Source of the DNA: Candidatus Promineifilum breve
GTDB taxonomy: Bacteria > Chloroflexota > Anaerolineae > Promineifilales > Promineifilaceae
Reading direction: 5' to 3'
Assembly: GCF_900066015.1 (NCBI RefSeq)
Contig: NZ_LN890655.1
Span: forward strand, 3,698,726 to 3,762,725
Length of the DNA: 64,000 nt
Shown: positions 22,147 through 41,718 of the stretch, one piece after another
How the letters are laid out: each line of letters starts with the position of its first letter
How positions within the stretch are numbered: position 1 is the stretch's first letter
Made by a program: the position numbers and the translations under genes
The notes under the pieces: generated by a model
The model's database searches: none
What the model saw: the letters and a program-made list of their open reading frames with translations, nothing else
Told to the model about the DNA's origin: nothing

Positions 22147-22184
22147 GGCCACGGCTGAACGTTGGGTAAGCCGTGGCCTTTTTT
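22147..22184 (+). terminator. Strong intrinsic terminator of the cox operon
   Basis: GGCCACGGCT (22147-22156) pairs perfectly with AGCCGTGGCC (22169-22178), and six T's follow. ctaG therefore needs its own promoter. Confidence 0.92.
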
Positions 22185-33736: not shown

Positions 33737-35269
33737 TTATTTGGCGAACCCAACCGCTCGCGTCTCGCGGATGACCGTCACCTGAATCTGACCCGGATAT
33801 TGCATCGAGTCCTCGATATTCTTGGAAATATCCTTTGACAGGCGCACGGCGGCCAGATCGTCGATCTGGTTGGGCTTCACGAGTACGCGGATCTCGCGAC
33901 CGGCTTGCAGGGCGTAGGCGCTCTCCACGCCGGGGAAGGACGTGGCGATGTCTTCCAGGGTGCGCACGCGCTTGATGTAGTTCTCCAAATTCTCGCGCCG
34001 CGCGCCGGGACGGGCGCCGGAGATGGCGTCGGCCGCCTCGACCAGGATGGCCTCGATGGTCTCTTGCTCCACCTCGTGGTGGTGCGAGGCGATGGCGTTG
34101 ACGACCACCGCCGGTACCTTGAAGCGCTTGGCGAACTCGGCCCCGATCTGGGCGTGGGTGCCTTCCTGATCGTGATCCATCGCCTTGCCCAGGTCGTGGA
34201 GCAGCGCGCCCATCTTGGCCGTCTCGATGTTGGCCCCCAGCTCGGCGGCCAGCATGGCGGCGATGTGGGCCGCCTCGACGGAGTGGTTGAGCTGGTTCTG
34301 GCCGTAGGACGTGCGGTATTTAAGCCGCCCCAGGGTTTTCAGGATTTCGGGGTGCAGCCCGTGGACGTTGGCCTCGTAGGCGGCCTGCTCGCCCGATTCC
34401 TTGATGACGCGCTCCACCTCTTCCTGGGCGTCGCTGATCAGCTTCTCGATGCGGGCGGGGTGGATGCGGCCGTCGGTGATGAGCTTGGCCAGGGCGCGGC
34501 GGGCCACTTCGCGGCGCACGGGGTCAAAGCTACTGACGGTGACGGCTTCGGGCGTGTCATCGACGATGATATCGACGCCGGCGGCCTGCTCGAAGGCGCG
34601 GATGTTGCGGCCGTTGCGGCCGATGATGCGCCCCTTCATCTCATCGCTGGGCAGCGGCACGACGGACACGACCATGTCGGCCACCTGATCGCCGGCCAGC
34701 CGCTGGATCGACAGGGCGATGATCTTGCGCGCCTGCTCCTCGGCCGTTTCCTTGGCCCGGTTATCGATCTCGCGCACGACGCGGGCCAGGTCTTGCTGGG
34801 CTTCTTTCTCCACCTGCTGGATGAGCACCTGCCGCGCCTCATCGGTGGTCATGGCCGCGGTCTCTTCCAGCTTCTGGCGATGCTCCTGTTCCAGATTGCC
34901 CAGGTCGTTTTGCCGCTTATCCAGCCGGCCCTGGCGCTTGTTGAGCACCTGCTCGCGTTGTTCCAGATTCTTGGCCTGTTGGTCCTGGTTGGCGCCGCGG
35001 CGGTCGACGCGCTCTTCGGCGCGGGCCAGGTCCTGATAGCGGCGTTCGATGGCCTTTTCGGCCTCCAGTCGTAACTCTTGAGTCTCTTCGCGCGATACGC
35101 GCAGGATATTGTCGGATTCGCGCTCGGCGGCCAGGCGCTTTTCGCTGATTTCAGCCTCGGCCGCGGCGACGGTCTCGGCGATACGGGGCTGCAAGACGGC
35201 GCGGGTGACGAGGGCGGCGATAACCGCGCCCACGACCACGCCGATCAGCAGGCCTATCCATAGTTCCAT
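33737..35269 (-). CDS. rny: Ribonuclease Y
   Basis: This 510-residue membrane-anchored endoribonuclease initiates mRNA decay. The order is an N-terminal helix ([19 protein letters not shown]), a long charged coiled coil (residues 30-190), a KH domain with [19 protein letters not shown], and an HD domain with [15 protein letters not shown] and [14 protein letters not shown] precedes ATG 35269. It lies 12 bases after recX, in a possible recA-recX-rny-dehydrogenase transcript. Confidence 0.96.
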
Positions 35270-35281
35270 GATGGTGTCTCC

Positions 35282-35914
35282 TTATTGTTCTTCGTCAAGT
35301 TGAATCGCCAGCCAGACCTCGGTGACAACCTCGCTAACGATGTCGTAGGCGTATCCCTGACGCATCAGATAGCGGGTGAGTTTGGCGCGCCATTCCGTTT
35401 CCGGTAAGCCGCGCCATCGTCCGGCTTGCTTCCGCGCGACCCGCCGGGCGGCGTCGGCTTCGTCCACGGTGGACAAGGCCTCGCCGGCTATCTCGCGACT
35501 GATGCCCCTCTGGCTGAGTTCCTGCCGCAGGGCCAGGCGGCTGCGCGGCCGAAAGGTCTCGCGCTGCTCCACCCAGTAGGCGGCAAAGGCATCGTCATCG
35601 ATCAGCTTGGCTTCGGTCAGGTCATCGATAACGTTCTTGATAATCTCTTCCTCGACTTTATGGCGGCGCAGATTGCGCGCGATTTCGGCCGAGCTATAGG
35701 GCCGGCGGGCCAGCAGGCCCAACGCCCGCTCGCGCGCCCGGTGCTTCTCCTCGCGCCGGCCCAGTTGCTCCAATTCCGCCTGGGTGATCTCCTGCCCAAT
35801 CCGCAGCCCGTCGGCCACCGACAGCGCCAGCCCCAGGGCAAAATCGCCGTCGATAAACACGCTGACGCGCTCCGGGTTTTTCACCTGCGCGGTGAGTGCT
35901 GTGATCGTACCCAT
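35282..35914 (-). CDS. recX: RecA regulator RecX
   Basis: This 210-residue protein starts MGTITALTAQVKNPERVSVF, as in RecX, and has the three-helix repeats RALGLLARRPYSSAEIARNL, DDDAFAAYWVEQRETFRPRS and RWRGLPETEWRAKLTRYLMRQGY. RecX binds RecA filaments and limits their activity. ATG 35914 fits the family; the upstream in-frame ATG 35941 lies inside the terminator hairpin. No ribosome-binding site is visible, consistent with low expression by read-through. Confidence 0.9.
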   Translation of the reverse strand: MGTITALTAQVKNPERVSVFIDGDFALGLALSVADGLRIGQEITQAELEQLGRREEKHRARERALGLLARRPYSSAEIARNLRRHKVEEEIIKNVIDDLTEAKLIDDDAFAAYWVEQRETFRPRSRLALRQELSQRGISREIAGEALSTVDEADAARRVARKQAGRWRGLPETEWRAKLTRYLMRQGYAYDIVSEVVTEVWLAIQLDEEQ

Positions 35915-35926
35915 CGTATAAAAAGC

Positions 35927-35952
35927 AAAAAGCCGTGGCATGAGGCCACGGC
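35927..35952 (-). terminator. Intrinsic terminator between recA and recX
   Basis: On the minus strand GCCGTGGC (35945-35952), loop CTCAT, GCCACGGC (35932-35939), then TTTTT and further T's. It sits 13 bases before recX, like the leaky recA-recX terminator known in E. coli. Confidence 0.88.
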
Positions 35953-36421
35953 TAGCGATTAGGCGTTCCAGGTCTTGCGATCTGTTGTCAATAAAGCCTC
36001 GCCCAGTGTCGGGCGAGGTCCCACTTAGCAGCGGCGTGAAGACGAGCAGTGACAGTATCTGTTGCGAGAAGACGAGAACACGCTGTACTCGATTGTGCGC
36101 GGGAGCGGTGTGCCTGTGGGCGCCATGATCAAGTTCCTATGTCGATCCGTCGCGCCACTCCGGCGATCCCGGTGGGGAATCGTGCCGTGGAGCGACGCGT
36201 TTATCATTCGCAGTTATAAGCAAGTATCCTGTTCGCTACCTATACTTGACGCAACCAGCTAACTGGGTTGTTCCTTATCGACCTTAGTGCCGCGACGTTC
36301 GCCATAGGCGAATGCCGTTTTCTAGCTGTGGCAGTAAGCCGTCAGTCATTTAATTGATGTAAAACGTCCGGTTCCAATTTATTGCGCGTCTTCTCGGCGC
36401 GCCAAGCGAGGCTTGAACCGG
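35953..36421. other. Unexplained structured gap between recA and recX
   Basis: There are about 470 bases with no convincing ORF and visibly lower GC than the neighbours. Dyads include CCTCGCCC/GGGCGAGG (35997-36018), TTCGCC/GGCGAA (36299-36313), CAACC/GGTTG (36252-36270) and CCGGTTC/GAACCGG bounding 36368-36420. On the minus strand the 35997-36018 hairpin is followed by CTTTATT, a possible weak terminator. A non-coding RNA is possible. I could not match it to tmRNA, RNase P, SRP or 6S RNA. Confidence 0.4.
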
Positions 36422-37429
<1,008 letters not shown>

Positions 37430-41387: not shown

Positions 41388-41395
41388 CTTCAGAG

Positions 41396-41467
41396 TCGCG
41401 GGGGGCCGATTCGAACGGCCGACCTCCGGGTTATGAGCCCGACGAGCTGCCTCTGCTCTACCCCGCA
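41396..41467 (-). tRNA. Initiator tRNA-fMet (anticodon CAU)
   Basis: This 72-base tRNA has a cloverleaf: acceptor TGCGGGG/CCCCGCG, D-stem GAGC/GCTC, anticodon stem-loop CGGGCTCATAACCCG with CAT, and T-arm GGCCG-TTCGAAT-CGGCC. Initiator hallmarks are three G-C pairs under the anticodon loop, A11-U24, and a non-Watson-Crick 1-72 pair, here U-G. The discriminator is A and CCA is not encoded. Confidence 0.95.
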
Positions 41468-41581: not shown

Positions 41582-41604
41582 GGCTTTGTTCGACAGTTAA
41601 ATAG

Positions 41605-41700
41605 GTGTCTTGCGGGTGCACGGTGAAACCGGGCTGAGATGCTCCTTCGGGTGGGGCAAACCGCTTAACCTGATCCAGGTAATGCTGGCGTAGGGAAATG
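41605..41700 (+). promoter_or_regulatory. TPP riboswitch (THI element)
   Basis: Conserved landmarks appear in order: GCGGGTGC, GGGCTGAGATGC, CTTAACCTGATCCAGGTAAT and GCTGGCGTAGGGAAATG. The variable P3 stem-loop lies between GAGATGC and the CUGAUC core. Together with the terminator at 41719-41743, it should switch off thiBPQ transcription when thiamine diphosphate is abundant. Confidence 0.97.
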
Positions 41701-41718
41701 ACGAAAATTCGTTTCATG

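Follow-up and report, generated by a model that had tools for sequence, protein, structure and literature searches.

The recA–recX intergenic region

The DNA analyzed here (the window) is a stretch of 64,000 nucleotides from Candidatus Promineifilum breve. On its minus strand, to which all feature coordinates below refer unless stated otherwise, recA (36422–37429; PF00154, E 1.3e-135) is followed by a gap of 507 nt, by recX (35282–35914; RecX_HTH1, HTH2 and HTH3) and by an RNase Y gene (33737–35269). Measured from the recA stop to the recX start, the gap occupies 35915–36421; its fold and its conservation in the genus make it a candidate attenuator RNA. In the first-pass annotation it was described as a gene-free stretch of ~470 bases. 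The stretch is real, and slightly longer than first stated, since it includes the last hairpin. It is also AT-richer than its surroundings, as had been remarked: its GC content is 54.8%, where the window as a whole has 63.4%, and of 635 equal-length sliding stretches 29 are as AT-rich. The minus-strand transcript of the gap gave a folding z-score of -3.77, and 0 of 100 shuffles folded as well.

Four ORFs of 56–66 aa lie within the gap, and none matched a Pfam family. The one on the minus strand showed no similarity to congeners better than E 0.12. On the plus strand, two of three ORFs have similar sequences in congeners (best E 5e-11 and 1e-3) and the third has no match; the similarities are attributed to conservation of the DNA for the RNA on the opposite strand. 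The ATG of the best-matching plus-strand ORF sits in the loop of the terminator described below and is not conserved in the genus alignment. With no domain match and no conserved frame with a start, a protein-coding gene in the gap was rejected.

The Rfam search proposed in the first-pass annotation returned no match to any model at gathering score, riboswitch aptamer families included; this holds for the gap and for 40 related loci alike. At a permissive threshold five matches appeared in the gap, all far below their gathering scores (best E 2.4) and regarded as chance; four of them cover the terminator hairpin. Covariance models of 6S RNA and RNase P RNA gave no match in the gap; both genes were found elsewhere in the genome. 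The minus-strand frame ANDKRVAP, earlier likened to the start of a tmRNA tag peptide, is present on direct reading. The hint at tmRNA (RF00023) that it carried was nevertheless excluded: the gap has no covariance-model match, and the genome's own tmRNA gene lies at C1:1138873-1139285 (E 4.8e-59), with none in the window. The gap RNA is assigned to no known RNA family. Elsewhere in the window, a TPP riboswitch (41602–41714, plus strand, 71.5 bits) and a tRNA-Met gene (41395–41467, minus strand) were noted.

A second recA was seen in the same genome at G000:C1:650893-651873 (about 1394–2374 of extracted locus L208). It is 90% identical to the window recA over 327 aa and is followed by an ORF that, by eye, resembles an S1-domain RNA-binding protein. 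Two strong recA matches are present in many of 52 family genomes.

Terminator, helix P0 and the folded domain

An intrinsic terminator hairpin precedes recX at 35931–35953. Its stem of 9 bp, seven of them G–C, is invariant in the genus, and by direct reading it is followed by a T-rich tract, TTTTGCTTTTT (35920–35930). The hairpin ends 16 nt short of the recX ATG and is placed between the promoter-proximal RNA and the recX coding sequence, as the terminator of an attenuator is. Together with a second terminator-like hairpin at 35997–36018 (CCTCGCCC..GGGCGAGG), it accounts for the two terminal hairpins reported earlier. In the 2 kb scanned there are three terminator-like sites compared with 1.8 ± 1.3 in shuffles, a number that is unremarkable by itself. 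Near position 22180 of the window (plus strand) a further site has a stem of this GCCACGGC/GCCGTGGC type and looks like a terminator, and the stem sequence is therefore not special to recX.

The hairpin might instead control mainly translation, hiding the start region of recX until P0 frees it. In 27 of 44 measured family gaps the stem end and the start codon are 5–16 nt apart, and direct reading of the window revealed no clear motif for ribosome binding ahead of recX, both of which would suit such a role. A T-rich tract after the stem, present in 8/8 genus rows, would be superfluous for it, and translation control is considered very improbable.

The 5′ arm of the terminator has an alternative partner. 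The block GCCACNGCTAG begins 90 nt past the recA stop and is complementary to CTAGCCGTGGC (35945–35955), nine bases of which are the terminator 5′ arm. The helix so formed, P0, is the putative antiterminator; its 5′ strand, GCCACAGCTAG (36322–36332), is complementary to 35945–35955 at 10 of 11 positions. Owing to the shared nine-base arm, P0 and the terminator stem are mutually exclusive. The P0 5′ strand is conserved in seven genus sequences, in which the unpaired position holds A, T or C but in no case G; the only other changes in the block are two cases of C to T opposite G, and the pair is kept. Within genus g22 (six sequences) the P0 core reads GCCAT[C/T/A]GGCAACCA, the sole variable base being the unpaired one, again never G. 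An alternative helix that excludes the terminator and is conserved in relatives is likewise expected of an attenuator, although from the window's own genome alone the P0 pairing is not significant (p 0.34–0.49).

In the genus alignment, invariant blocks alternate with variable stretches, and the blocks pair with each other. Hairpin P1 (36293–36317), an inverted repeat that follows CTAGAA, is predicted in 7/7 genus sequences despite a different sequence in each. Helix P2, predicted by RNAalifold and almost invariant, joins GTCGATAAGG (36273–36282) to CTTTATTGAC (35987–35996), with 70/70 cells paired in the genus. Helix P3, taken from the genus alignment, joins AACCCA (36264–36269) to GTGGG (36020–36024); as AACCCA/TGGGTT it has 37/42 cells paired, and both sides changed at one position. 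The hairpin at 35997–36018, on the 5′ side of the P2 3′ strand, recurs with changed bases in 7/7 genus sequences. A small hairpin at 35969–35984 has a loop of GCAA, GAAA or GAGA, which is always GNRA across the genus sequences.

For g22, RNAalifold predicted a multibranched domain of 122 pairs, 13 with two-sided changes. The terminator and the inner part of P0 are formed, and the outer antiterminator strand is folded on itself (UGCC..GGCA); this predicted fold is the terminated state. The covariation looked for in the first-pass annotation is present in that helices are retained through sequence change in the genus. A formal count on g22 of P0 and its adjoining helices found 96% of cells to be paired, with a single two-sided change, and 96 of 500 shuffles reached as much; covariation beyond shuffles is lacking in this set because P0 hardly varies there.

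Stripped of its terminator, the sense-strand gap RNA folded with a mean z of -2.76 compared with -2.12 for the reverse complement (Wilcoxon p 0.0012, n = 44); stretches from the recA coding sequence had a mean of -1.32, and this difference was significant too (p 0.0002, n = 37). The earlier suggestion of a non-coding RNA transcribed with recA is thus well supported as regards a structured RNA running in the recA direction. Its anatomy points to a cis-acting attenuator more than to a free RNA.

A free RNA was weighed all the same. The gap could yield a non-coding RNA of ~400 nt that either stands alone or is processed, with P0 closing the mature molecule, the terminator as its 3′ end and recX merely lying behind. 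The long structured domain with a terminal helix would agree with this, as would a weak match to TG-N-TAGAA in the P0 motif, noted by eye in the genus alignment, that can be read as an extended -10. The site scan, however, found no sigma-70-like site in the gap, and the location before recX is maintained in the gaps examined. Moreover, the P0 5′ strand lies 2–25 nt after the recA stop in several lineages (e.g. G020, G049, G026 and G019), which leaves no room for a promoter outside recA. A stand-alone RNA is judged unlikely.

Conservation and pairing across the Anaerolineae

A DNA search of 59 genomes detected the gap RNA in the window genome and in 6 of 7 other genus members, so that the conservation in relatives on which the first-pass proposal of an RNA had been made to depend is present. 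The genus copies adjoin recX and, contig permitting, recA. The lone congener with no gap match (G007) has a recA and no recX match at E 0.001; its assembly is 79% complete. The exact 3′ block occurs in seven public contigs, assigned to Promineifilum sp. (four), Ardenticatenia bacterium (two) and Anaerolineae bacterium (one). Among 298 class genomes it was found without mismatch in four (the window's own and three congeners) and with three mismatches in one more. As far as the searched genomes go, the exact block appears restricted to the genus. Two weak DNA matches outside it (L016 and L017) were taken as chance, as both fall within ORFs (about 200 and 400 aa long) and lack any terminator context. 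When other genera were scanned with a profile of the genus RNA, it was chiefly the terminator that matched; the remaining matches were weak (the 5′ motif in G034, E 0.35, and matches in G026 and G073).

In the family, recX was found in 48 of 52 genomes, and recA was in reach in 44 of 49 extracted gaps. In 33 of 44 measured gaps, no more than 30 nt separate the end of the terminator stem from the recX start; five further gaps were too short for the terminator test. In other Anaerolineae families recA was in reach in 24 of 30 loci, with gaps of 11 to 785 nt. The short ones measure 11 nt (f34), 27 nt (twice, f12) and 91 and 93 nt (f35). Gaps of this size, 11–93 nt, have no room for the folded domain; those of f35 hold a terminator-like hairpin only. 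Forty further Anaerolineae stretches included recA within the piece in 25 cases, with gaps of 108–714 nt. In 20 stretches from other Chloroflexota classes, recA was found in 10; there the gaps ranged from -50 to 90 nt, apart from a single one of 323 nt. One locus from another Chloroflexota class (L151, genome G355) has a gap with a strong inverted repeat (-34 kcal/mol) that resembles a repeat element and is unlike the attenuator; this genome was tested and then excluded from the counts. In the second outside set a terminator-like hairpin was chosen in 23/23 Anaerolineae gaps of at least 150 nt, a count that includes some poor tails and for which no background was computed. T-richness was a selection rule of the automatic scans of other lineages and so does not count there as evidence against translation control.

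The complementary segments are often unrelated between lineages, for example ACGCTGCAGCTTTCGCG in G083 (f30), CCGTTACAGCTTTTA in G256 (f46) and GATCATAGCTTTC in G086 (f33). Many other Anaerolineae keep a long gap and a predicted terminator/antiterminator design while the sequences have changed. Conserved interior blocks are found inside the genus and none across the class, where no 6-, 7- or 8-mer rose above the maxima of 20 shuffled sets. The missing class-wide word argues against one classical aptamer and suggests that the switch is kept while the intervening domain drifts.

Pairing of the terminator arm with its own gap was compared with several controls. The family swap test used the first 150 nt of gaps from 40 genomes in 19 genera with recA in reach and a gap of at least 250 nt. 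Arms paired with their own gap at a mean of -17.5 kcal/mol versus -15.4 kcal/mol with the gaps of other genera (12 of 20,000 permutations as low), and in a swap among 25 other families (40 genomes) the means were -24.3 and -21.0 (0 of 20,000 permutations); matched GC content could favor the swap test, and not the shuffle test. When each genome's own gap was dinucleotide-shuffled for comparison, 10 of 40 genomes in the family reached p < 0.05 (Fisher 5e-8), as did 8 of 18 genomes in the first outside set (Fisher 5e-9) and 5 of 23 in the second (Fisher 1e-4). The same arms tested on equal recA stretches, a control covering the family and the first outside set, gave 4 of 40 (Fisher p 0.10) and 1 of 18 (Fisher p 0.88). 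Ten other terminator-like sites of the window gave none below 0.05 and one at 0.05 (Fisher 0.20). Taken singly, most genomes do not show significant pairing. The automatic terminator choice was wrong in at least G021, G034 and G118, and G118 was positive in its recA control as well.

These comparisons bear on whether the hairpin is simply an ordinary terminator of recA that lets through a fixed part of transcription, as in E. coli, while the complementary segment plays no part in regulation. Such a terminator has a precedent in the E. coli recA–recX terminator, which passes 5–10% of transcripts (Pages et al. 2003, cited in PMC6662834). The hairpin-only gaps of f35 and the recurrence of a GCCACGGC-type stem at window position 22180, which makes it not unique, point the same way. 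Nevertheless, complementarity to the own gap exceeds that of shuffles, swaps and recA controls, the P0 5′ strand is conserved in the genus and long gaps are maintained in many Anaerolineae, all of which leave an ordinary terminator decidedly unlikely.

Switching was predicted with truncated RNAs from 26 cases, namely the seven genus sequences and 19 examples picked for evident or likely pairing. When the RNA is cut after the terminator 5′ arm, P0 is predicted to be at least half formed in 22/26; when the whole terminator is present, it is predicted to be less than half formed in 23/26. As exceptions, P0 is weak even before the terminator in 4/26 and persists with the terminator in 3/26. Computation thus shows both pairings, their mutual exclusion, their conservation and their lineage-specific complementarity, and it predicts switching.

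Proposed readthrough control and comparison with known systems

What defines an attenuator anatomically is a terminator and a conserved helix that competes with it. Here this arrangement lies between genes with opposing products, and control of readthrough from recA to recX is the most economical mechanism. We consider it probable, with moderate confidence, that the gap encodes a cis-acting, riboswitch-like attenuator that sets readthrough from recA to recX. Once copied by RNA polymerase, the terminator 5′ arm would pair with the conserved segment after recA to form P0. This helix would close a folded domain of some 370 nt, the antiterminator state, and transcription would proceed into recX. 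Where P0 fails, the 5′ arm would pair with the terminator 3′ arm and transcription would end just short of the recX start codon. P0 contains a mismatch or bulge; it is therefore weaker than the terminator and probably in need of stabilization.

We infer that the switch operates in cells and that its purpose is to adjust the RecX:RecA ratio, with tuning by the folded domain or by ribosomes finishing recA. In most examples the distance from the recA stop to the P0 5′ strand is between 2 and about 170 nt, and in some lineages such ribosomes might therefore cover this strand. Alternatively, the interior domain may bind a protein or ligand. It is possible, though rather doubtful, that the attenuator is a class-wide RNA sensor that uses its folded domain to read DNA damage, RecA/RecX level or recA translation and sets the RecX:RecA ratio by antitermination. 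If so, it would represent a new class of regulatory RNA for DNA repair, one that retains its switch while the sensor domain diverges.

In ON-type transcriptional riboswitches, such as the adenine riboswitch of pbuE, the 3′ strand of the closing helix is the terminator 5′ arm, and a held domain means expression. By analogy, P0 and the terminator of the gap RNA would work like an ON expression platform. The gap RNA differs in having no Rfam aptamer match and no interior motif shared across the class, and in lying between two genes, whereas riboswitches lie at the start of an mRNA.

RecX restrains RecA (PMC3062782, PMC7029489), and the RecX:RecA ratio therefore bears on the limits set to both recombination and the damage response. 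As described in part of the text of PMC6662834, E. coli likewise has an intergenic terminator and reaches recX by readthrough from recA; no antiterminator or large folded domain is mentioned in that part, whereas here a gap of ~500 nt carries a conserved competing helix. In M. tuberculosis, recX also lies downstream of recA and is co-transcribed with it, but according to the relevant portion of PMC3062782 the two coding regions overlap, a recX promoter lies inside recA and there is no gap RNA. A 2010 survey of 104 candidate RNAs reports Chloroflexi-1 and pan for Chloroflexi, and its main text, as far as seen, contains neither recA nor recX (PMC2864571). No RNA switch of recX is described in titles or abstracts among the matches listed. 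Judged by this literature search (including parts of PMC12448304), an antiterminator with a large folded domain between recA and recX seems to be new. In the bacteria of the cited papers, as far as their excerpts tell, plain readthrough or overlap connects the two genes. A switch made of RNA, if true, would be a regulatory RNA away from the metabolic genes with which such RNAs are usually found. It would also be a directly testable means for many members of the Anaerolineae, a class both large and little studied, to adjust the RecX:RecA ratio.
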